Assembly (NCBI RefSeq): GCF_019649055.1
Contig: NW_026570653.1
Location: 1 to 22,852, forward strand
Source of the DNA: Paramacrobiotus metropolitanus
Lineage: Eukaryota; Tardigrada; Eutardigrada; Parachela; Macrobiotidae
Direction of reading: 5' to 3'
DNA length: 22,852 nt
Under the pieces are notes generated by a model. The model was not told the origin of the DNA, made no database searches, and saw nothing but the letters and a program-made list of their open reading frames with translations. The translations under genes and the position numbers were made by a program. The first letter of the stretch is position 1. Each line of letters opens with the position of its first letter. Positions 2,850 to 17,324 of the stretch are shown here, in pieces.

Positions 2850-2909
2850 AAATTTTCGAAAGGCAGACCTTCGCTCTAAATATTTCGCTGGGCAGATTTG
2901 GTTTTACAG

Positions 2910-3256
2910 ACGCAGAAAATGGGTGCCCGAGCGAAATGGACGATAAGCCATTTCCGGTATTCTCCACTGAACCAGCGACTGCCGTTGAATGTGGTTATCA
3001 GCAGATGGATTGGCGGTGCATCTCCTTGGTTACGTCTAAACAAATCGAGTGTCCGGAAGCTAACTCCACTGGCAAGCTTTTCGACGCATCCTACTGCCTC
3101 TCCGAACTGCGCAGTCAGTCGGTGGCTCTCGCCCGATTCCCGCCGCGTCCTCTGAGACTGTTCTCTCGCCCGATTCCCGCCGCGTCCTCTGAGACTGTTC
3201 TGGATGGACAACATCACGGCTGTTTCGAGCGATTTGGGTTTCGAGCGCGCGCGTAA
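2910..3256 (+). CDS. Probable alternative last exon of the LRR gene P1
   Basis: The frame is open from 2822 to the TAA at 3256. An acceptor, TTGGTTTTACAG, ends at 2909, and a donor, T|GTAAGC, lies at 2782. Joining them removes 128 nt and keeps this frame (codon TAC across the junction). The peptide has four spaced cysteines in its first 60 residues (NGCPSE, VECGYQ, DWRCIS, IECPE) plus SYC, like an extracellular domain. After that it crosses a 37-bp tandem duplication that shifts the frame and gives an arginine- and proline-rich tail, so the true 3' end may be different or damaged. It could also be a separate gene fragment. AATAAA signals follow at 3318 and 3349. Confidence 0.45.
3126..3199 (+). 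repeat. 37-bp perfect tandem duplication
   Basis: The 37 bases at 3126-3162 (CTCTCGCCCGATTCC to CTGAGACTGTT) are repeated exactly at 3163-3199. Thirty-seven is not a multiple of three, so within a coding exon the duplication shifts the downstream frame. The identity of the copies points to a recent event. Confidence 0.95.
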
Positions 3257-3620: not shown

Positions 3621-4262
3621 TTACGAAGCACGTGTAACGGTGAGGAGATGGCGGAGGACGCGCCAGTAGGTGTCGCGCGTGCGCCAGTACGCGTACATGT
3701 CCGTGGCCACCCGGCGCATCTCCGCCGGCGGCTCCGGCAGCGCGGCCTCCATGGCCGTCCGCATGGCGGTCAGAGTCGCGACAATGTCCTGGCCGCAGTC
3801 CAGACGCAGGAAGGGCACGGCCACCCGCAGCGGCGGCGCCGGGTCGCGGCTCTGGTAGGGCTCATCGGTCAAGGGGGTGAAGTCGGAGTGCCAGGAGGGC
3901 CGGCAGTGGTGGAAGGCTTGGACGGCGTCGTTCTGGACGTAATCAACCAGGATCAGCTGGCCGCTGCACATGTCCATCAGCGGTGACAGGTGGTGCAGGG
4001 GAAAGTAGAGCGGCGCATGGGCACTGGCCTTCCATTCACTGACCACCGCCCAGACGGTGGGCAGGTCGCCGGTTACGACGCAGCGGTGGCAGATGATACG
4101 CTGCAGTGCCGCGGCCGGTGCCGGTCGGAGCATTCTGACCAGCTGCCGAATGAGGGTCACGTCGCTGCTGCCCACACGCAGGCTGCGCTCGGCCAGACGG
4201 TGCTCGCCGGGCCGCCACCGGCTCAGCACCAGCGTCCGCACGTCACGGCTCAGCCCGTACAA
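3621..4262 (-). CDS. Unrecognised GC-rich gene, 5' end cut by an inverted-repeat element
   Basis: The reverse strand is open for 213 codons and is far richer in G+C than its surroundings, with strong preference for G or C at third positions. The product is rich in Leu, Arg and Ala. It has no membrane segment I can see. Notable parts are a Leu/Arg-rich first third with segments such as LVLSRW and LIRQLVRML, the ICHRCVV pair of cysteines, the phrase VPFLRLDCGQDI, and a C-terminal aromatic run YAYWRTRDTYWRVLRHLL. The nominal start is TTG at 4262, and the frame reaches a stop a few codons further inside the terminal repeat of the 4260-6081 element. The gene is therefore 5'-truncated there, or its acceptor lies in the repeat. 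No matching 5' part is visible on the far side of the element. I do not recognise the family; an F-box/LRR-like protein is only a guess. Confidence 0.55.
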   Translation of the reverse strand: MYGLSRDVRTLVLSRWRPGEHRLAERSLRVGSSDVTLIRQLVRMLRPAPAAALQRIICHRCVVTGDLPTVWAVVSEWKASAHAPLYFPLHHLSPLMDMCSGQLILVDYVQNDAVQAFHHCRPSWHSDFTPLTDEPYQSRDPAPPLRVAVPFLRLDCGQDIVATLTAMRTAMEAALPEPPAEMRRVATDMYAYWRTRDTYWRVLRHLLTVTRAS

Positions 4263-4377
4263 CGTTCTATGGGCACACCGGGCAACCTATCAGAAACTCT
4301 TACTGAATCAAACTGCTATATTTCTTATTAAGGTATACAGATAGTATACATAAGTGGGTATTGCTGAAACAATTATT

Positions 4378-4392
4378 GGTAGGCGGCCTACC
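4378..4392. repeat. Palindromic motif copy 1 (27-bp extended palindrome)
   Basis: GGTAGGCGGCCTACC has a six-base stem around the centre CGG. Here the flanks ATTATT and AATAAT extend the palindrome to 4372-4398. Confidence 0.9.
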
Positions 4393-4486
4393 AATAATGA
4401 TTCTCTAGACCGAGTGATTTTATTATTAACAACAACAAACGTGATTACTATTAGTAGTAGTATACACTTTTACTGGAACAATTTCC

Positions 4487-4501
4487 GGTAGGCGGCCTAC
4501 C
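4487..4501. repeat. Palindromic motif copy 2
   Basis: An exact GGTAGGCGGCCTACC core lies within the left terminal repeat. The flanks (TTTCC before, TTTCC after) do not pair with each other. Confidence 0.9.
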
Positions 4502-4626
4502 TTTCCTTTACTTATTACATAGACCGGTTGACGGCGTTGAGTTAAACAGTTTCATTTGTCGAGGAGGCCCGGAGATTCGATAAAAAAATCAGGTGTAATT
4601 TCATTATATAAAATCTACAAAGTACT

Positions 4627-4641
4627 GGTAGGCGGCCTACC
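4627..4641. repeat. Palindromic motif copy 3
   Basis: An exact core sits just inside the left terminal repeat. Flanks TACT and AGTA extend the pairing, giving TACTGG...CCAGTA. Confidence 0.9.
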
Positions 4642-4743
4642 AGTAACGCTGGATCTGTGACAACCACCAGCTCTGTCGCCCTGGCTCGGGATCACGGGAT
4701 CATACAACACATGTATGTCCGTTTCGCACTTTGATGAATATGA

Positions 4744-5010
4744 TTGGATGAAGATGTTTGGGAAGAGATGCAGAAGTTCCGTTCAGCTGTCTGCCGTATG
4801 TTCGCAGAGAACGAAATGGATTGTGTATTCATGGAAACCGCTACGCGTCTTAAGTCGCATCCGCATATGCAGATTGAATGCATTCCGCTGGATAAGGACA
4901 ACGGCAGCTTGGCTCCAATGTATTTCAAAAAGGCTATTCTCGAAGCGGAAGGAGAATGGACACAGAATAAGAAGCTGGTCGATCGGAACCGGATGCACCG
5001 ACCGGTCTAA
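4744..5010 (+). pseudogene. CWF19-like protein 2 fragment (CwfJ C-terminal domain 1)
   Basis: The frame is open for 88 codons and matches the middle of the first C-terminal CwfJ domain of CWF19L2-type proteins. Those proteins act with the spliceosome and in lariat turnover. Diagnostic stretches are LDEDVWEE at the start, the HMQIECIPL histidine/Glu-Cys motif near residue 50, MYFKKAILEAEGEW and NKKLVD. Family members continue after NKKLVD for a long conserved second domain. Here similarity stops at about 4983 and the frame ends with an unrelated RNRMHRPV. The 5' side also stops sharply: codons before TTG at 4744 include TGA. The piece thus lacks the rest of the domain and lies inside an inverted-repeat element. 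No stop or frameshift interrupts the matched part, so capture seems fairly recent. The symbol is left blank because only a fragment is present. Confidence 0.75.
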
Positions 5011-5250
5011 TCCGGCATCGTGAACGTGATGGAACGCCGCACTGCGCTCGGGAAGAATGTAAATCGGGATGGATCCCGTGGCGGTGAACTGAACATGTGT
5101 GTTGCTGCCAACAGGAGTGCCACTGGATGCAGACGATGTCCCGGTGCGTTTGTTGCAGTACTTGCAGAAAAACAATGCCGCAAACAATCCTAACAGGAGT
5201 GCTATGGCCATGACCAGCAAAGTTATATCTACCACGTTTACTGATGTCAT
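4783..5250 (-). CDS. Small single-pass membrane protein, fused to antisense CWF19-like sequence
   Basis: The reverse-strand ORF starts at an ATG (5248-5250). After nine polar residues comes a clear membrane helix at about 9-29 (LLVMAIALLLGLFAALFF). A basic, Cys-bearing border follows (CKYCNKR), then a Ser/Thr/Gly-rich tail. That arrangement suggests a type III membrane protein with a short outside end and a cytosolic tail; the border cysteines could be lipid-modified. From about residue 90 (PVPID, near 4981) the frame becomes the mere antisense of the CWF19-like fragment, so the genuine protein probably covers 4981-5250 and its original C-terminus is lost. I do not recognise the family. Its presence inside the inverted-repeat element suggests a second captured gene fragment. 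Expression is unproven. Confidence 0.45.
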   Translation of the reverse strand: MTSVNVVDITLLVMAIALLLGLFAALFFCKYCNKRTGTSSASSGTPVGSNTHVQFTATGSIPIYILPERSAAFHHVHDAGLDRSVHPVPIDQLLILCPFSFRFENSLFEIHWSQAAVVLIQRNAFNLHMRMRLKTRSGFHEYTIHFVLCEHTADS

Positions 5251-5841
5251 GTTATATGTTAATTACAACCGTAGCAAGACAGTCGAGGTGTCCTTCGTCG
5301 CTTAGCTTGAAAATTAAAATACCAATGGAACTATACACTGTATACGTCGTAGAAGTCGTTACACAGTTTTCATTATTTACCGATATGACCATAATTATAT
5401 AAAGCATCTTCAAGTATTTTAGCCAGTACGTTGAACTAATTTTGATAAGATATTTTTGTTCCAGAATTCCAGATTAGCTGCTGAACGCCTGAGCGAAATG
5501 ATTCAGTCATTTTACACCGCTGAATTAAGTCGAGCTAGACGGGTTTTCCCCGTGAGTCACTAACCACCTCGTCATCATTCACTGTTTAAATCCTCAAATA
5601 ATTTACTTCTTTCTTTACACACTAATTTAATCTAAATTGGAAACATACAGATACAGGTAGAGCGCACTTGTCAGAATACGCAAGAGATGTTCACATTTAA
5701 AAATATCTTCACCGTAATAATATCGCATTGGAAGTCAAAGCGTTTTATATAATTAAATTACACCTCATTTTTTATCGAATCTCCGGGCCTCCTCGACAGA
5801 TGAAACTGCCGTCAACTGGTCTATGTAATAAGTAAAGAAAA

Positions 5842-5856
5842 GGTTGGCCGCCTACC
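5842..5856. repeat. Palindromic motif copy 4, variant
   Basis: GGTTGGCCGCCTACC is the reverse complement of GGTAGGCGGCCAACC, one base off the core. It is the right-arm partner of copy 2. The same variant occurs at 8042 and 8082. Confidence 0.85.
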
Positions 5857-5948
5857 GGAAATTGTTCCAGTAAAAGTGTACTACTACTAATAGTAATCAC
5901 GTTTGTGGTTGTTAATAATAAAATCACTCGGTCTAGAGAATCATTATT

Positions 5949-5963
5949 GGTAGGCCGCCTACC
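5949..5963. repeat. Palindromic motif copy 5
   Basis: This is the reverse complement of copy 1 with the same ATTATT/AATAAT flanks, as expected for the right arm of the element. Confidence 0.9.
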
Positions 5964-6140
5964 AATAATTGTTTCAGCAATACCCACTTATGTATACTAT
6001 CTGTATACCTTAATAAGAAATATAGCAGTTTGATTCAGTAAGAGTTTCTGATAGGTTGCCCGGTGTGCCCATAGAACGTTTTAATAATTTAAAGGATGAA
6101 CTGCATCAACACTGAGCGCTACCGTAGGAAATGTACGGCA

Positions 6141-6144
<4 letters not shown>

Positions 6145-6171
<27 letters not shown>
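6145..6171. repeat. (TA)n microsatellite
   Basis: Thirteen TA units stand in an uninterrupted run, about 65 bases beyond the right end of the TIR element. Confidence 0.95.
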
Positions 6172-6182
6172 CAGTCGGAACG

Positions 6183-6699
6183 ATGAATTTGTGCTGTATT
6201 GTAAATAATAATGGCTTTTTTGTACATGTAGAACTACTTGTTACAGATGCTGTTTACTGCATTGCAGACACGAATCATGCACACTTTATAGTCGGCGTTG
6301 GCACAATTGGGACCGGAGACTCGTTTTTTCACGGCCATCAGTCATTTGAACTGATTTCAGCGGCAAATGCATGCAGTATAGTGCTCATCTTGTGTTCGAC
6401 AGATCCTCCGACATAAGTGATCCTGTTCCGGGTTGAAGTGTGTTTGGGGCAAATTCGCAGATGATTTTGTGTCTCCTCTGAGTATAAGCGATTTTTATTT
6501 TCACTTTGACATTGGTGAAAGATTTGGCGGTTGCATGATGATGTGGAGTGACAACGGAGTACTGCGTACGATTTTATATTATTTGGAAGAAAAAAATGTG
6601 GTAAAATTGAAATTAATCTTCCGTCTATGTACTGGCGGCATTCTATTATGTGATACTGAATTTACGATATTTTTTTCGCGATCAATAAAGGTCTCATAA
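6183..6699 (+). other. Two weak adjoining open frames, unassigned
   Basis: An ATG frame at 6183-6416 (77 residues) and a frame at 6433-6699 (88 residues, nominal TTG start) lie next to each other in different phases. The second has a hydrophobic, aromatic composition (SDFYFHFDIGERFGG) and ends beside an AATAAA at about 6684. I recognise no domain. They could be parts of one gene with a short intron, or chance frames in AT-rich DNA. Confidence 0.2.
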
Positions 6700-6929
6700 C
6701 GTCTGCATACACTTTTTCATCACCTTACAAAATCAGGGTTTGATTTCACGCAATACAAGGTTTGCTTGAATTAAAGTGTGCACTGTCCATTAATAATTAA
6801 AATGTTCATCAAGTAAAAGCAATAAAGGCGCTTAATCAAAGCAGGAAAAATTAACTAATGAATCGCGCTTGGCCCTTCGCGCCTTTACTCATTCTACGCA
6901 TAGAAAACCCCTGATGGGGCTGTCCGAAT

Positions 6930-7073
6930 TCACATAATATCACTTCCGGCCTGTACAAACTGGAACCGATAATACCTAACCGGAGCTGGATAATCCTGCC
7001 GTTCCGGTAGCCAACTAATGGAAAGCGCTTTTGGATTGGACACGGACATCGGATGCTCGCTGTATTTGCGCTT
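6930..7073 (-). pseudogene. Possible fibronectin type III domain fragment
   Basis: A 47-codon reverse-strand frame between two stops reads KRKYSEHP and then PKALSISWLPERQ, followed by PAPVRYYRFQF. The spacing of the Pro, the buried Trp (ISWLP) and the Tyr-Tyr-Arg strand is typical of strands B to C in FN3 domains of cell-surface proteins. Only about half a domain is present and no splice sites clearly frame it. The other two reverse frames are also partly open here, which weakens the case. If real, it is a decayed exon of an adhesion or receptor gene. Confidence 0.3.
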
Positions 7074-7303
7074 TCACCGGCAATTCAATGCTGGCCTCCA
7101 TCCCACCGATGTATTAGCCGCTAATGTGACCATGTAAGAACTCCGTGGTAGCAGTTTATGTACAGTGAAAGAATTTAATCCCGGAGACAAGAATACTGGT
7201 GCACTGTCGACAACTAATTCCTCTCGCCGGTATGAATCTCGATATACGTCTGTATATCACATGCATAAATTTACTGTTAATACACTTTGCTGATAATACT
7301 TGT

Positions 7304-7318
7304 GGTAGGCGGCCTACC
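7304..7318. repeat. Palindromic motif copy 6, outside the element
   Basis: An exact core with flanks TTGT and ACAA gives a 23-bp palindrome at 7300-7322. The flank sequence differs from the other copies but is again self-complementary. Confidence 0.9.
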
Positions 7319-7923
7319 ACAAAATTAATAAGACACTGCATGCGCTCTGTCATTATGATTACGGTCATGAAACGTATAGTCATTATGTACGGACTATACA
7401 TCGCCAGTTCTTAGACGGTTGTCGTTGATTATTCTACTGACGTCCTTTAGTGAGCCAACGGTATCTGTTCGTGCAGTGAATACTTATCATCGATTTACAT
7501 TGTTTAATTGGCAGAATTGTCTGGTGTTCTCTGCAATTTGAGTTACTATTTTATTTTGGCGTCAATGGTCAATATAGTATTCACGATTTCATGTACTCGT
7601 ATACGACGGACGATACGTAATCTGGCGGACCCGACTCTGTTCATTTACTAATAATTAGAATATTTGTTTTATTTGTAAAATTAAAATTTGCTACATCCTG
7701 CAATTTTTTTAGCAGGCCAGCTCCCAATAATGATCGGTGATTTGATGAGAATACATGTGTTGCACGTATCCAATAACAGTAAACCGTAAACAGTTATAAC
7801 ACCAAGATTAAACCATAATCAGTTATAATACCTTAGAACCTAAGAAACTACGAAAAAAATATTGTAATGGCAATGGCCGTCGATATGCAGCCGATCATTG
7901 ATAGTTGGGCAATGAATAAATCC

Positions 7924-7938
7924 AGTAGGCCGCCTACC
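7924..7938. repeat. Palindromic motif copy 7, variant
   Basis: AGTAGGCCGCCTACC is one base off the core, with pairing flanks TCC and GGA outside the changed base. It lies in AT-rich DNA between the TIR element and the 111-bp array. Confidence 0.8.
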
Positions 7939-8030
7939 GGAAACGATAAAAATATTCTGATTTGGGATCAATTTTTGTTGCATTATATATACAATATTAC
8001 AAGTTATATGACAACTTTATTATACATCAC

Positions 8031-8110
8031 AGAATGGAAATGGTAGGCGGCCAACCTAAAAAGGAAATGAAGAATGGAAATGGTAGGCGGCCAACCTAAA
8101 AAGGAAATGA
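8031..8110 (+). repeat. 40-bp exact tandem duplication with the palindromic motif variant
   Basis: Positions 8031-8070 and 8071-8110 are identical. Each holds GGTAGGCGGCCAACC (8042-8056 and 8082-8096) followed by TAAAAAGGAAATGA. The second copy supplies an ATG (8107) that leads into the 111-bp array. Confidence 0.95.
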
Positions 8111-8244
8111 ATGCATTTATTCGGCATTCAAATTCAGTTGCACCCATTCCAATTCAGTTGCGCCCATTCCCACACAGCTACTCAATTCCAACTCAATTTC
8201 AGTATTTCACTGAAACGCGAAATACTACAATTGAGCCAGGGTAA
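8107..8244 (+). CDS. Possible 45-residue proline-rich peptide at the array start
   Basis: An ATG at 8107 opens a 45-codon frame ending at TAA 8242-8244. The peptide begins MNAFIRHSNSV and continues through the first array unit as IPIQLRPFPHSYSIPTQF and FTETRNTTIEPG. The same frame in every later unit reads ETTIPP to TIEPG and then meets the same TAA. After the last unit it continues as ETTIPPPPPYRPP to a stop. The Pro/Thr/Gln/Tyr composition is more protein-like than the competing long frame, and the non-repetitive tail fits it in style. I cannot tell whether it is translated. Confidence 0.3.
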   Translation: MNAFIRHSNSVAPIPIQLRPFPHSYSIPTQFQYFTETRNTTIEPG

Positions 8245-9355
8245 GAAACCACTATTCCTCCAATTCAGTTGCGCCCATTCCCACACAGCTACTCAATTCC
8301 AACTCAGTTTCAGTATTTCACTGAAACGCGAAATACTACAATTGAGCCAGGGTAAGAAACCACTATTCCTCCAATTCAGTTGCGCCCATTCCCACACAGC
8401 TACTCAATTCCAACTCAGTTTCAGTATTTCACTGAAACGCGAAATACTACAATTGAGCCAGGGTAAGAAACCACTATTCCTCCAATTCAGTTGCGCCCAT
8501 TCCCACACAGCTACTCAATTCCAACTCAATTTCAGTATTTCACTGAAACGCGAAATACTACAATTGAGCCAGGGTAAGAAACCACTATTCCTCCAATTCA
8601 GTTGCGCCCATTCCCACACAGCTACTCAATTCCAACTCAATTTCAGTATTTCACTGAAACGCGAAATACTACAATTGAGCCAGGGTAAGAAACCACTATT
8701 CCTCCAATTCAGTTGCGCCCATTCCCACACAGCTACTCAATTCCAACTCAGTTTCAGTATTTCACTGAAACGCGAAATACTACAATTGAGCCAGGGTAAG
8801 AAACCACTATTCCTCCAATTCAGTTGCGCCCATTCCCACACAGCTACTCAATTCCAACTCAATTTCAGTATTTCACTGAAACGCGAAATACTACAATTGA
8901 GCCAGGGTAAGAAACCACTATTCCTCCAATTCAGTTGCGCCCATTCCCACACAGCTACTCAATTCCAACTCAGTTTCAGTATTTCACTGAAACGCGAAAT
9001 ACTACAATTGAGCCAGGGTAAGAAACCACTATTCCTCCAATTCAGTTGCGCCCATTCCCACACAGCTACTCAATTCCAACTCAGTTTCAGTATTTCACTG
9101 AAACGCGAAATACTACAATTGAGCCAGGGTAAGAAACCACTATTCCTCCAATTCAGTTGCGCCCATTCCCACACAGCTACTCAATTCCAACTCAATTTCA
9201 GTATTTCACTGAAACGCGAAATACTACAATTGAGCCAGGGTAAGAAACCACTATTCCTCCAATTCAGTTGCGCCCATTCCCACACAGCTACTCAATTCCA
9301 ACTCAATTTCAGTATTTCACTGAAACGCGAAATACTACAATTGGAGCCAGGGTAA
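8111..9355 (+). other. Long open frame through array units 1-11 (414 codons)
   Basis: Because the unit length (111) is divisible by three and this frame has no stop in the unit, it stays open for 11 copies of a 37-residue repeat containing SQGKKPLFLQFSCAHSH and SISLKREILQL. It is broken by an extra G at about 9343 and resumes in other phases at 9453-9989 and 10227-10775. There is no signal peptide or known domain. Openness is a simple consequence of the period, so this may not be a gene. Confidence 0.2.
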
Positions 9356-10701
9356 GAAACCACTATTCCTCCAATTCAGTTGCGCCCATTCCCACACAGC
9401 TACTCAATTCCAACTCAATTTCAGTATTTCACTGAAACGCGAAATACTACAATTGAGCCAGGGTAAGAAACCACTATTCCTCCAATTCAGTTGCGCCCAT
9501 TCCCACACAGCTACTCAATTCCAACTCAATTTCAGTATTTCACTGAAACGCGAAATACTACAATTGAGCCAGGGTAAGAAACCACTATTCCTCCAATTCA
9601 GTTGCGCCCATTCCCACACAGCTACTCAATTCCAACTCAATTTCAGTATTTCACTGAAACGCGAAATACTACAATTGAGCCAGGGTAAGAAACCACTATT
9701 CCTCCAATTCAGTTGCGCCCATTCCCACACAGCTACTCAATTCCAACTCAGTTTCAGTATTTCACTGAAACGCGAAATACTACAATTGAGCCAGGGTAAG
9801 AAACCACTATTCCTCCAATTCAGTTGCGCCCATTCCCACACAGCTACTCAATTCCAACTCAATTTCAGTATTTCACTGAAACGCGAAATACTACAATTGA
9901 GCCAGGGTAAGAAACCACTATTCCTCCAATTCAGTTGCGCCCATTCCCACACAGCTACTAATTCCAACTCAATTTCAGTATTTCACTGAAACGCGAAATA
10001 CTACAATTGAGCCAGGGTAAGAAACCACTATTCCTCCAATTCAGTTGCGCCCATTCCCACACAGCTACTAATTCCAACTCAATTTCAGTATTTCACTGAA
10101 ACGCGAAATACTACAATTGAGCCAGGTAAGAAACCACTATTCCTCCAATTCAGTTGCGCCCATTCCAACACAGCTACTCAATTCCAACTCAATTTCAGTA
10201 TTTCACTGAAACGCGAAATACTACAATTGAGCCAGGGTAAGAAACCACTATTCCTCCAATTCAGTTGCGCCCATTCCCACACAGCTACTCAATTCCAACT
10301 CAATTTCAGTATTTCACTGAAACGCGAAATACTACAATTGAGCCAGGGTAAGAAACCACTATTCCTCCAATTCAGTTGCGCCCATTCCCACACAGCTACT
10401 AATTCCAATCTCAATTTCAGTATTTCACTGAAACGCGAAATACTACAATTGAGCCAGGGTAAGAAACCACTATTCCTCCAATTCAGTTGCGCCCATTCCA
10501 ACACAGCTACTCAATTCCAACTCAATTTCAGTATTTCACTGAAACGCGAAATACTACAATTGAGCCAGGGTAAGAAACCACTATTCCTCCAATTCAGTTG
10601 CGCCCATTCCAACACAGCTACTCAATTCCAACTCAATTTCAGTATTTCACTGAAACGCGAAATACTACAATTGAGCCAGGGTAAGAAACCACTATTCCTC
10701 C
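8151..10701 (+). repeat. Tandem array of 23 units of 111 bp
   Basis: Units start with AATTCAGTTGCGCCCATT at 8151, 8262, 8373 and so on to 10591. Copies are almost identical. One variable site (CAACTCA[A/G]TTTCAG) is G in units 2, 3, 6, 8, 9 and 15 and A elsewhere. Indels (+1 near 9343; -1 near 9959, 10069, 10125; a shift near 10400) and a C-to-A change (units 19, 22, 23) gather in the second half. Each unit has two overlapping hairpins, TTTCAGT/ACTGAAA and AGTATTTC/GAAATACT, and looks like an acceptor (CAATTTCAG) followed 38 nt later by a donor (CAGG|GTAAG). It is a minisatellite or satellite, not a CRISPR array. The flank before is the 40-bp duplication and after is a proline-rich coding-like tail. 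Confidence 0.97.
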
Positions 10702-10759
10702 GCCTCCGCCGTATCGGCCGCCGGAATCCCTGCCGTCTATACCCGCTGATCCCTCCTGA
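10685..10759 (+). pseudogene. Proline-rich coding-like tail after the array
   Basis: After the TAA of the last array unit the frame reads ETTIPPPPPYRPPESLPSI and ends at TGA 10757-10759. The PPPPPY run includes a PPxY-type motif. The first four residues come from the array unit itself. It may be the remaining C-terminal end of the gene in which the array expanded. Confidence 0.3.
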
Positions 10760-10815
10760 CGCATGTCAACAGTAATCTCATGGATTTGTAAATAATATTA
10801 TGTGCGGATAACCTT

Positions 10816-11406
10816 TTGGAGGGATGTTACGCGCGCTCGTATGTGGTCTATTACGAGTCACTGTTGTGCAGTCAACCTCGCACCACGGCTTTTCTGTACC
10901 AACTTAGACTGACCAGTTTACTAGCGTACCAGCTGTTCCACTGCTCCAAATTAGATATCAGAAAAGCCGATTTTCACTATTCAAATCGACTACGCGAATT
11001 CCGCCTGTACAATTCCACGATCCGGAATCTAGAGAAGGATGTTTTCTCGGGTCTTCCATCACTGCGCTTGCTGTTACTGGAGAGCGGTTTGCGAAGTGGA
11101 CCGGAAATAGAGGGCCATACTTGGCTGATCCCAGCGTATGACGACCGGCTACGTAATTATCTGTTCCAGCTGCACTGCGGCTGTGCGTTTGCATGGTTCC
11201 GAGACTGGCGCCGGAGCAATTCGGCTTTGCTGAAGGCGGCTGACCTGGGAGAAGTATGGTTTGCCGCGCATTATCTGCTTAATGAAGTGTACGATCCCTC
11301 TGATATGTTTGTGCCGATCAATTGCGCCCAGCCCATTCCTTATGGACCCGACGAAGTGGATGCTAACCAGACAGCCTTTTCCCAGAATGAACCGAACTGC
11401 TGGTGA
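10816..11406 (+). CDS. LRR-domain extracellular protein, copy P2 (5' truncated)
   Basis: The product is a paralogue of the protein at 2058-2849. Shared blocks, in order, are HHC/FHC with K.DF, LR..LYNSTIRNLE..VFSGLPSLRL, RNYL..LHCGC...WFR, LL.AAD, DMF.PI.CA..P.P.G and AFS.NE..C. Cysteines 121, 123, 170 and 195 form the LRRCT pattern. It ends at TGA 11404-11406 directly after the last Cys and Trp. The start is a nominal TTG; the frame is open only from 10792. The N-terminal cap present in P1 (about 65 residues) is missing, and the 111-bp array ends 115 bases upstream. So P2 is either a 3' exon whose upstream part is elsewhere, or a gene beheaded by the array. A donor-like G|GTAACT follows at about 11409. 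Confidence 0.65.
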   Translation: MEGCYARSYVVYYESLLCSQPRTTAFLYQLRLTSLLAYQLFHCSKLDIRKADFHYSNRLREFRLYNSTIRNLEKDVFSGLPSLRLLLLESGLRSGPEIEGHTWLIPAYDDRLRNYLFQLHCGCAFAWFRDWRRSNSALLKAADLGEVWFAAHYLLNEVYDPSDMFVPINCAQPIPYGPDEVDANQTAFSQNEPNCW

Positions 11407-12306: not shown

Positions 12307-13342
12307 TCACAACAAAAACAGTTCATTTAACGCTGCCGCTCCTTCCATGGTACCGAGTACGGAAGCGGCGTTACCCCGTTGGATATCCGAGAACAAGCCT
12401 TGACGAAGAAACTCGTGCGAGCGATGTTCGCCCGTCTGTTGTGCGAGCCGCTTACCGATTTCTTTTACTATGCTGATGGATGACTTTCCCCGTGTTCCGT
12501 GCGTTTCAAAAGCTGATGCTGCGAAGTCATACCGTCCTTCCAGGTACGAGTACAGCTGCCGTTTCTTGTTCTTCGCCAGCTCGGCTGCAGATCCCGCGGT
12601 TACCGACGTAGACTTCAGATGGGATTTAGCTCACGTATTGCGCAGATTATGTCGCATGGTAAGCACATGCCGCGCTTCCATGCGAACGTGGTGCACTCAT
12701 CAGGGCGACGCTCTGACGTGTGGGATGTTCCTCGAGGTTTCAGCTTGGCAGGTATGCCGGCAGACACTATAGATCTGCAACCGATACTATTAAAACCGCC
12801 ATGACGTGGGTGTTTCCCGGAGGAAAACGGGCACGATATGCCGTGGTGGCCATATACGTCGACAGGCATGTGGCACTTCGCACAGAAGTGGGGCTCGCAA
12901 ATAGTTACCCCCGGCCGCAGTCCAACTGATATGTTAACTGTACCGTCGCACAGAAGATTACCGATGTGCGCCGAGAGCAATGCGTTTAACCATAAGCCGA
13001 CTTCTGGCATTGATTGAGCCAAGAGTCGAGCCCTGTTTACTTAGTCGTCACGATAAACATCCAGAAACGTAGACAGCAATGCGTTACAGAGCGGTAAATC
13101 GTAGGTCCGTTGTGTCTTCGAAAACTGAACTCTGGAAGATCGGTGAGAGGCGCGCCGTCTTTCCACAACTCCAGAGCTTCAGAAACGTTGAGTGAGGGAT
13201 GATCAGGAGGCAGATTCGACATTATGTCGAATGCGGAGTGAATCGATGCCAAAAAGGCAGGGAGTGCTAATTCTTCCGCCCTGTTGCCACTGCTCGGTCC
13301 TAGATTCCTCTTGACGCAACGCCGCTGCTGTAGCACTGACTG
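12307..13342 (-). pseudogene. Decayed C-terminal part of a restriction-like-endonuclease retrotransposon protein
   Basis: Reading down from 13342, the pieces are: LALPAFLASIHSAFDIMSNL and LNVSEALELW; then, in another phase, LLSTFLDVYRDD, a TAA, and NRARLLAQSMPEVGLWLNAL; a Cys/His segment CEPHFCAKCHMPVD...GHHGISC with PRHGGFNSI; RRPDE.TTFAWKRGMCL.CD, which corresponds to the RPDG...PW..G..L.WD nuclease-type motif; after a further frameshift near 12625, SVTAGSAAELAKNKKRQ; and the end IQRGNAASVLGTMEG to TGA at 12307-12309. This order is that of the C-terminal region following reverse transcriptase in RLE-type non-LTR elements, as I recall the family. At least two frameshifts and one stop break it, and a catalytic-type WD is now CD. 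The reverse transcriptase itself is absent: the 785-bp TIR element abuts at 13343. Confidence 0.65.
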
Positions 13343-13344
13343 TA

Positions 13345-14129
13345 ATGCTAGGTCCATACTTCGGTTTTTAAAACGTTGTACAACAAAATCGTAGTCTTAA
13401 AATGGGAACTACGATTTCACCAATCGTAGTTGCAGTTTCCTGGATGTTGTAGTAATGTTGTAAAATTTTTGTAAACTGCAACGATTCCCGGCCATACTTT
13501 GACCACAACTGAAATCTGAGCCAGCCCAGCAAGGTTCGGTTGGCGTACAAATCGCGCTTATTCTTATTATTAATAAGCGGAAGCAGCAGGTTTTTATTTT
13601 GTTTCATTATACGAACAGTTTACAAATCAGTAAATCAGTCATGCTCGCACGCTATACCGAAGACTATCTACAAAAAAAGCTTTCATAATATAAATGGAGT
13701 CATATGCATAGTCACATAAATGGAGTCACATGCTATGTAAATTAAAAACTTGTACACGGTTTAACCGTGGAGTGAGGCAGCATAGTTTGATGCAACTAAC
13801 CAACGCAAAAAAGTCAGCAAATAAAGGTAATCAGTAAATGGCGCATAAAAGGTAGAATAAAGAAAGCTCGCGAAATATTATGGCGATTCTGACAAAGCTG
13901 CTTATTCGCCAGTTTGCTAAAGGAAGAAAAGCCCTTTCCTCCTACAACATCGATGACCACAAATAATTTTTCGAAATACAGCATTTTTCCTACAACTGTT
14001 CGCGTCCATACTTTCGAGAACTACAACAAAAAATGCTACAACAAAACTGACTCCCGTGCATACTTCTTCTACGATTGTTGTATGATTTTTATAATACTCC
14101 GAAATACAACTCAAGTATGGACCTAGCAT
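13345..14129. mobile_element. 785-bp TIR element without a transposase
   Basis: The ends share a 17-bp inverted repeat, ATGCTAGGTCCATACTT, at 13345-13361 and 14113-14129. TA flanks both ends (13343-13344, 14130-14131). Further CATACTT words lie near the ends (13493, 14009, 14060), like subterminal repeats. The interior has no plausible transposase. It is inserted at, or borders, the retrotransposon-like pseudogene. Confidence 0.65.
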
Positions 14130-15009: not shown

Positions 15010-16374
15010 AAAACCAAGTATTGTACGAGCTCAGAAGTTCGTTTGGCAACAACACATGCCGTGGGGTGGTCGCATATGTGGCGCACACCGTACGAGGTTA
15101 AATAGCTGCAGCAACACGAATGTTGAACAAAGTGAAACATGAACTCTCAAGTGCATGCGTTGTTTGACACTTCCGGCACATCCGGCTAAAAGAATGCTAA
15201 GGTTGACTTATTTACAACCGTACGCCATTAATTAACTGTAGCAATACGAATGCGTCTACGCGACCCGGAATACCCGCTAGGTATTCACAGCTACCTTCAT
15301 CTATCTATACTTCTATTTCTAAACTATGCAAGGTTGTACCTTCTACAGTCATCTGCATGCCATCAACACAAAGATCTCTAGTCATCTGTGCCGGGTAGCT
15401 GAACAAAATATCGGTCAAACGTTTTGGTTTGTTAAGCATTATACAAGTCACAGCACTTTCTGTGATATACAAGCGTGTTCAAGCGTGTGTGAGTCACACA
15501 GTGTGACTGCAGCACGGTTTGCTCGACCACAATAAACAACACGTTTTAAAATTTTCGTGTCCCATGTTTCGAACATGTTATCTCGTGGCATTTCTTTCAC
15601 GTATGGATGCTATGAATATTTCCAACTGTTTTGTTTAGAGAAATGCCTTTTCTTTTGCTAGTTAACAGTTGCTGACATGCTGCTTGCGCTGGGCGAGTTA
15701 TGCACTCTGCGCACTTTGTGACTTTTCCAAAAAATGCCGGTTTTTTATTTAAGTTTTATGGGTAATTTTTGTTGAAATAGTTGGCTGTATGATAAGCTGC
15801 AATACAAAATGCCTATTTTGATGTTTAGGTAAAGCCTTAGAACACATGCGGAGCAATATGTCCTTCATCGAGGTGCATGTAAACATCCGAATGGAGGGGT
15901 GGACAGCGTCCGGACGAAGTTACCGCTGTTCCTTGTAGCGATGAGAAGCCGGTAGTTTTAGAATGCTGCGCTGGCACAGATACCTTCGCTCAAGCTCATA
16001 CTCATACAGCCTGCAAACGTTGTTTTCAGTAACGAAAACACGGTAAATTGCTGTGGCGTCATGTACGATATCTATTGTACAGAATTTGTACTGATTACAC
16101 AGGAAAGCACTGTGTATATATGCGCACAGATGCTTAGTCCTGAATTGTTCATTAAAAAACAGTCCACTAATGATGTAGCATGCAGTATTGCAGGTAAATA
16201 TACGCACTAGTATTTCGTACGTGCAACTATTTCGTACGCATACGTACAAGTGCAAGTACAAGTATAATTATAGTAAATACCTACTGTATTTCTTTTTGAA
16301 ATATTATAAGTAAGCGAATCCTTCGTTTAAGTGTATTCGCTGAGCTTTACCCTTTTCGACAATCGTTATTGATT
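15010..16374. other. Region without a clear gene
   Basis: Only weak open frames occur, the longest a 113-codon reverse frame at 15920-16261, Cys- and Tyr-rich and without recognisable domain. A short palindrome, AGTCACACAGTGTGACT, lies at 15491-15507. I see nothing else. Confidence 0.4.
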
Positions 16375-16377
16375 TTA

Positions 16378-17035
16378 GGGAAGTGGGCCGGTACATAGCA
16401 CCAAATTCGTGCACAGGCACGAAAACTTTCCTTTTTCAAACATTTTGTTTCGGTTTGTGACATTTATAGCCAGAAGATTTATACATGGCGTGAAAACCGT
16501 TTGTGCGCGCAACATCGGTTCGGGAGTTATGGCTGTTAGAAAATTCAAAAGTTTAAATGCGTTCAGGTGTACTAAAAGTCTCATTATGGACGATCTCCTC
16601 AAATTTTGCACGTAAATGCACATAACGATGAAGATCGTTTTTACACCGATCCACTGTTCTAGCATGTTTTTCAAATTTTAAAGTGAATTACAAAAATTTT
16701 AAAATTCATTTTAAAATTTGAAAAAAATCATGGAAGTCTGGATCGGTGTAAAAACGATCTTCAAAGACATGCGCATTTATATGCAAAATTTAAGGGAGAT
16801 CGATCCATAATCAGACTTTTGGTACACCTGAATGCATTTAAACTTTTTGGAATTTTCTAACAGCCATAACTCCCGAACCGGATGTTGCGCGCACAAACGG
16901 TTTTCACGCCAGTGTATACAAACCTTCTGGCTGTAGAATGTCATAAACCGAAACAAAAATGTGTTTGGGAGTGCGCGAAAGTGAAAGTTTTCGTGCATGT
17001 ATACGAATTTGGCACCATGTACCGGCCCACTTCCC
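16378..17035. mobile_element. 658-bp foldback element with TTA target duplication
   Basis: The whole element folds on itself. The left arm from GGGAAGTGGGCCGGTACAT at 16378 pairs with the right arm ending ACCGGCCCACTTCCC at 17035, and similarity continues inward to the centre near 16690 (AAATTTTAAAATTCATTTTAA). TTA flanks both ends (16375-16377 and 17036-17038). No transposase is encoded; ORFs inside are mirror images of the arms. A partial relative lies at 1-135. Confidence 0.9.
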
Positions 17036-17324
17036 TTAAAGGATAAATCGCTGGTTAAAACTGATAAAAGAGGGTACAGCATCACCGGCGGCGAATTTAG
17101 ACGAAATCTTTTCAATTATTCGCCCGCCTGTGTTTGTAGATGTTGCTGTTTAACTCGCTTGTGTTTTTAGCCTGTCATTACGTTATATAGGTAGAATTTG
17201 TGAAAAATTTCGTTGCTCATAACCCGAAAATAAATTATCATCGTATAAAAGTGGTACTTCGTGTATTATATATGATAACTAATCCTAGTTTCCCTACTCC
17301 AGATTAATCCATTACGTGAGTTTG

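Follow-up and report, generated by a model that had tools for sequence, protein, structure and literature searches.

The window analysed in this study, i.e., the whole 22,852-nt stretch of contig NW_026570653.1 (contig label C433), contains two inverted arms enclosing pieces of two genes and, beyond them, a long tandem array, and it is probably a rearranged member of a low-copy, non-autonomous, Mutator/Foldback-like transposon family that has collected host gene fragments. The left arm (4258–4612, plus strand) and the right arm (5743–6083, minus strand) pair in an outer block (4258–4465 versus 5876–6083, 99% complementary), a middle block (4463–4535 versus 5808–5880, 96%), and an inner block (4547–4587 versus 5768–5808, 98%), a complementarity far beyond chance. 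Between the arms, the plus-strand frame 4747–5007 matched CWF19-like protein 2 in the PDB (E 2.8e-26) and the Pfam family CwfJ_C_1 (E 2.6e-15, above the family cut-off), with stops directly upstream of the matched part and none inside it. The corresponding exon fragment of CWF19L2 (4745–4984, plus strand) has its parent at C5:3338045–3338293, with a BLAST match to 4993 and clean identity to 4984. It meets, at 4984–4993, a minus-strand open reading frame (ORF) of transmembrane type with a hydrophobic stretch (5262–4783), which is short, of no known source, placed at 4990–5250, and open on to 4783 as the antisense of the CWF19L2 piece. The initial annotation had described both gene pieces, the unbroken CWF19L2 match, and the near-identical arms, all of which were confirmed; its interpretation of 4260–6081 as a Pack-type transposon, with arms of 340–354 bp as terminal inverted repeats (TIRs) and a flanking TA, was not.

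Genome searches covered the assembly of 169.8 Mb and 533 contigs, and the match counts obtained from them are lower bounds. The left arm gave six matches at five loci, namely both window arms and one each in C10, C2, C231, and C72; the arm is single at all four other loci, with no inverted pair outside the window. Its outer edge runs unbroken into the reverse complement of window 6084–6537 in C10 and C2, and of 6084–7361/7370 in C72 and C231, a family sequence referred to here as X (6084–7370, minus strand). At the same four loci its inner edge leads into cargo, so that their common order is X-arm-cargo, and the window reads arm-cargo in plus orientation (4258–5745) and then arm-X in minus orientation (from 5743). 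Since each of the four other loci (4/4) has one arm that extends outward into X, the window arms are internal family sequence and not transposon termini. The TA at 4258–4259 and 6082–6083 is part of the shared family sequence on the right-hand side, hence not a target-site duplication, and the sequences flanking the arms are unrelated and have no duplication in common. Accordingly, 4260–6081 is not an independent element. Copies of the paired repeats with other or no cargo, which the initial annotation had anticipated, were not found, as the window is the only locus with an inverted pair of arms, and the gene pieces are not tied to such a pair, being held together in C10, C2, and C231 with one arm only. 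Five loci with the arm single at four of them do not make up a family of miniature inverted-repeat transposable elements either, which are short, numerous, and bounded by paired TIRs. An inverted pair around gene pieces thus need not represent TIRs, and it is the related copies that decide.

The palindrome GGTAGGCGGCCTACC, present in three copies on the plus strand (at 4378, 4487, and 4627, within 4378–4641), marks the arm and X as belonging to the family itself: 18/18 exact genome-wide matches fell inside the five family loci, and the backwards-read control gave 0 and 1 matches. The two window arms differ at 10/340 positions. The left arm belongs with C10, C2, and C231, and the right arm has a C2/C10-like outer half and a C72-like inner half, with 0/170 differences to C2 and 4/170 to C72 over alignment columns 1–170, and 1/171 to C72 and 8/170 to C2 from column 171 to the end; seven of the eight informative arm columns put the right arm with C72, and one otherwise. 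The right arm is thus itself a recombinant of two family copies. A simple inverted duplication of one copy was also considered and is ruled out, because the inner right arm goes with the C72 group (7/8 columns) and the outer half and X1 are C2-like. For X, further diverged partial relatives were observed at C67 and C18 (81%) and at C6 (75%).

The window joins its two family segments head to head at 5743–5745, where the join is clean and 3 bp (TTT) are in common. The left segment, which over 5000–5724 differs from C10 at 15/719 and from C2 at 22/718 positions, ends in 21 bp (5725–5745) that lie beyond the right edge of the family in C10 and C2, 3′ of the beta-mannosidase gene. At 4258, the apparent left "TIR end" is a truncation against a fragment of another host gene (3638–4258, minus strand, 621 bp), which is multicopy, of unassigned function, 99.8% identical to C197 over 3638–4248, and, compared with C197 and C276, truncated at either end.

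Rightward of X, the window contains a subterminal block (7384–8071, minus strand) common to C10 and C2, of which 7754–8071 also occurs in C72, and then an array of 23 copies of a 111-bp unit (8148–10701, minus strand) with the terminal sequence AGTGGTTTCTTACCCTGGCTCA. This left end is common to C2, C10, C72 (2 mismatches), and the window, whose outermost copy, a 22-mer match at 10672–10693 (minus strand), forms the family's left end. The C2 copy, 5.9 kb in length, ends in an inverted 22-bp sequence, AGTGGTTTCTTACCCT[G/C]GCTCA, found at 2287577 (plus) and 2293406–2293427 (minus) as an inverted pair that spans 5.85 kb and matches at 21/22 positions, and the inverse 22-mer follows where homology to C10 stops. 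At up to 2 mismatches, the 22-mer had 26 genome-wide matches (two in C2, one in C10, one in C72, and 22 in the window array), and its backwards-read control had none. The C2 copy lies in the left arm of another repeat, the right arm of which (C2x 13590–12830) shows the uninterrupted site and reads CTACTACCCA; the flanks of the copy overlap by CTACCACCCA, a direct target-site duplication of 10 bp. Target duplications of about 10 bp are made by Mutator/Foldback elements, and those of plant Mutator-like elements (MULEs) measure 9–10 bp. The repeat that hosts the C2 copy (C2:2287461–2296589; L054, L008, and L055) has long inverted arms that match each other imperfectly (68% over 754 columns).

The 111-bp array of the window is a tandem amplification of the family terminus. 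It is absent from C10 and C2 and, among the examined loci, occurs in the window only and at one end, and such a one-sided array does not correspond to Foldback elements proper, with long tandem-unit inverted repeats at both ends. As a minisatellite, it comprises 37 codons per unit, and one frame is open for 414 codons at 8111–9355.

The family has taken up pieces of several host genes. Clean identity to CWF19L2 gives way to the transmembrane ORF after GTCGATC (position 4984 in the window) in C10, C2, and the window; C231 shows this arrangement too, with indels. In the exon-intron-exon region examined, the parent frame on C5 is open upstream and, past an intron, downstream, and in C72 a 529-bp match (92%) takes in the exon, the intron, and part of the exon beyond it; the retained intron suggests a capture from DNA. 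In all five CWF19L2 copies, the same six differences from the parent recur and the left joint is identical, which is consistent with a single capture. The initial annotation had expected parents of both gene pieces elsewhere in the genome, and this proved correct for CWF19L2, which lies on C5. For the transmembrane ORF, neither the DNA search nor the six-frame protein search of the assembly (E up to 1) found a parent, the latter giving five matches in four loci, all family copies, and no homologue was present in the protein collection searched.

The source gene of a beta-mannosidase piece in C2 is on C10. The C10 copy borders this gene, with Pfam domains in two ORFs, and the C10 frame L007:5399–5602 corresponds to residues 804–868 of a solved beta-mannosidase of 868 residues (E 3e-07); in C2, the terminal part of the coding sequence is present and breaks off inside this frame, at L007 (C10) 5589. 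A 2.55-kb stretch of the C10/C2 interior was found in C10 and C2 only by genome search, and three ORFs of this interior had no Pfam family. A piece of POLD2 occurs in C231 and C72; in C231 it matched Pfam DNA_pol_D_N (E 1.2e-29), and the piece matched residues 84–182 of DNA polymerase delta subunit 2 in the PDB (E 5.7e-20). In the genome, only paralogues at 49–68% protein identity to the fragment were seen. These POLD2-like open frames, at C45, C49, C4, C318, and C24, exceed the copy number expected for a replication gene. At L010 (C72), the ORF 2852–3214 (minus strand) matched baculovirus LEF-12 in Pfam at 17.9 bits against a cut-off of 27, probably by chance.

Two copies could be compared with counterparts of their flanks. 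C259 resembles C231 without its 3.7-kb insert, with 95–96% identity on both sides and a GGG overlap, the C231 target being CAGGG/GGTGAG. The POLD2 piece at one edge of C231 and a right edge within one base of that of C10 favour an insertion in C231 over a deletion in C259; C231 and C10/C2 have the right edge AATAATATC in common, and C2 has extra host flank beyond it. C234 aligns across the joined C72 flanks (76%, query 1–405, junction at 329); the gene hosting the C72 copy is presumably P-loop GTPase-like, from a P-loop motif in its translation and not from a family search. To the right of this insertion, L010 (C72) carries a 1163-bp direct repeat (reverse complement 6528–7688 and 7839–9001, 99.7%), which might represent retroelement ends, a tandem duplication, or an assembly effect. 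L009 (C231) has many single-base indels relative to the other copies, suggesting that small contigs are unpolished.

Given the left end common to four loci and the inverted ends with a 10-bp duplication at C2, it is reasonable to suggest that the window element, as a Mutator/Foldback-like transposon, starts at its true left end, the array at 8148–10701, and would run leftward via 8071–7384 and X to the arm. At 5743–5745, the copy would change strand and continue in a second family segment, from 5745 to 4258, with 21 bp of beta-mannosidase flank, the transmembrane ORF, the CWF19L2 piece, and the arm, and at 4258 it would switch to the fragment of another host gene. The mosaic interior might have been built by gap repair or by fork-stalling template switching among family copies and host genes, and a MULE-type transposase acting in trans could move the element via its ends, leaving a footprint at C2 only. 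No transposase family was found among the eight window frames run against Pfam, a part of the window's ORFs that includes one frame taken out of phase (4760–5008), which to this extent agrees with the initial annotation. The genome gave at least 39 MULE transposase matches, all over the family cut-off, which makes MULE machinery plausible there; the same search was positive in 3/14 control genomes.

A further and more tentative proposal is that this is a recently active animal multi-gene Pack-MULE family, the copies of which might preserve successive stages of capture in the following supposed order. The first stage would be C72, with POLD2 and the CWF19L2 exon-intron-exon piece; the second would be C231 and C10, in which a shortened CWF19L2 is joined to the transmembrane ORF; the third would be C2, where the beta-mannosidase end was added together with the right end; and the fourth would be the window, in which family segments recombined head to head, the terminal repeat was amplified 23-fold, and one more gene fragment was acquired. 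A multi-gene family with its sources, an insertion-free counterpart, and staged copies would allow one to read directly in what order capture, template switching, and transposition took place.

Several observations weigh against the transposon interpretation. Both ends are present at C2 only, with one end each in C10, C72, and the window and none in C231, and no right end was found at up to 6/22 mismatches in the examined stretches of the window, C10, C72, and C231 (9 kb for the last three), nor beyond them in the whole-assembly 22-mer search at up to 2 mismatches. At C2 itself, 19 bp separate the duplication from the left terminal sequence, and the right end is without these; local alignment gave a 29/33 inverted match of the ends, of which 11 bp are target on the right side, so that the firm match is the 22-mer with 21/22. 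The C231 insert has neither end and only the GGG overlap, and a deletion at microhomology in C259 would produce such an overlap as well; the repeat flanking the C72 insert on either side is only 6 bp (GGACGC). The six common CWF19L2 differences could have arisen in the parent instead. Moreover, no transposase with family ends was seen at the 3/39 MULE loci inspected, about 1.5 kb on each side; with 3 mismatches allowed in a 13-mer, two weak matches occurred at L058 and none at L056 and L057.

The head-to-head join, which we infer to be real, might instead be an assembly artefact, in which C433 mis-joins reads of two family copies while the family and its gene fragments are real. In favour of such a mis-join are the small size of C433 (22.9 kb), the C72 lineage of the inner right arm next to a C10/C2/C231-type left arm, the lack of the inverted pair at any other locus, and the single-base indels of C231, from which small contigs may be unpolished. 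Nevertheless, a single molecule read as a simple fold-back would not give arms that differ at 10/340 positions; over 5000–5724, the left segment departs from both C10 and C2 in ways peculiar to it; and the two segments meet cleanly, sharing 3 bp. A mis-join seems rather unlikely. To a similar degree, it is doubtful that the loci are a transposase-independent patchwork of segmental duplications and double-strand-break filler DNA with no mobile element of its own. The 3 bp in common at 5743 and the three G at C231, the varying ends at C231, C10, and C72, and the differing gene fragments at several edges would suit such a patchwork. It would have to account, however, for the left terminal sequence that recurs in C2, C10, C72, and the window, for an inverted terminal copy where C2 homology to C10 stops, and for a 10-bp target duplication seen against the uninterrupted paralogous arm.

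An element of the Helitron type, acquiring genes through rolling-circle read-through, could leave several copies without visible TIRs and a right edge common to C231 and C10/C2, with extra host flank past that edge in C2. However, the C231 target is not A/T, the right edge reads AATAATATC(T) with, by eye, no CTRR end, and C2 has inverted ends with a 10-bp duplication, which leaves a Helitron very improbable. Hardly credible at all is the original proposal that the arms of 4258–6083 are TIRs: near-identical arms do enclose gene pieces, but each of the four other loci has one arm running outward into X, the sequence to the right of the pair belongs to the family, and what stands of Pack-type gene capture is a dispersed low-copy family with host gene fragments.

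Other features of the window lie outside the arms and cargo. Two plus-strand ORFs of leucine-rich repeat (LRR) type (1965–2849 and 10792–11406; weak Pfam LRR_8 matches below the cut-off) flank the element. The flank outside the terminal sequence (10702–10828), with the start of the second of these ORFs, is common to C10, where it also lies beside the family copy. Minus-strand ORFs at 12307–13396, with no Pfam match, may resemble the tail of a retroelement protein. Nested inverted repeats occur at 16373–17040 and 1–122, with arms 16597–16695 and 16697–16795 lying 1 nt apart and 1–122 pairing inverted with 16878–16999; they have relatives at the C340 and C49 loci (L033 and L044) and are probably another fold-back repeat.

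The family was not reported among the literature matches listed on tardigrade transposable elements, gene capture, and metazoan Pack-TIRs; tardigrade with Pack-TIR gave no match, and the sole match for tardigrade with Pack-MULE concerns Ectocarpus. A tardigrade repeat-curation paper lists MULE among its superfamilies (PMC11071193), and a survey of 100 animal reference genomes reported 370 Pack-TIRs and no Pack-MULE, with the MULE-like Ssk-FB4 coming from fly populations (PMC8277862). As in plant Pack-MULEs and MULEs with tandem TIRs (PMC3310237), gene fragments lie inside a MULE-like element with tandem terminal repeats; the present family differs in its animal-like genome (CWF19L2, POLD2, and beta-mannosidase) and in inverted ends far shorter than the long TIRs of most plant MULEs. 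Tm1, a Mutator/Foldback element of root-knot nematodes, is similar in that its composite ends vary in length, its duplications measure 9 bp, and one member holds a gene (Cg-1), and different in its composite inverted repeats and one member with a putative transposase, neither of which was seen in the present family (PMC3169594). Turmoil-1 of C. elegans is likewise an animal DNA transposon with two protein-coding gene fragments, although these are described as sitting within its inverted terminal repeats (PMC2572040). Ssk-FB4 of Drosophila melanogaster, a Pack-TIR of Foldback, is alike in that a host gene was captured by a non-autonomous MULE-like element and occurs at several loci; it has 9–10 bp duplications, rearrangement-prone repetitive ends, and 2 bp of microhomology at the capture point (PMC8277862). 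Compared with Ssk-FB4 as described there, the window family has a clear duplication at one locus only, and it combines several unrelated gene fragments with a short end sequence and a one-sided array.

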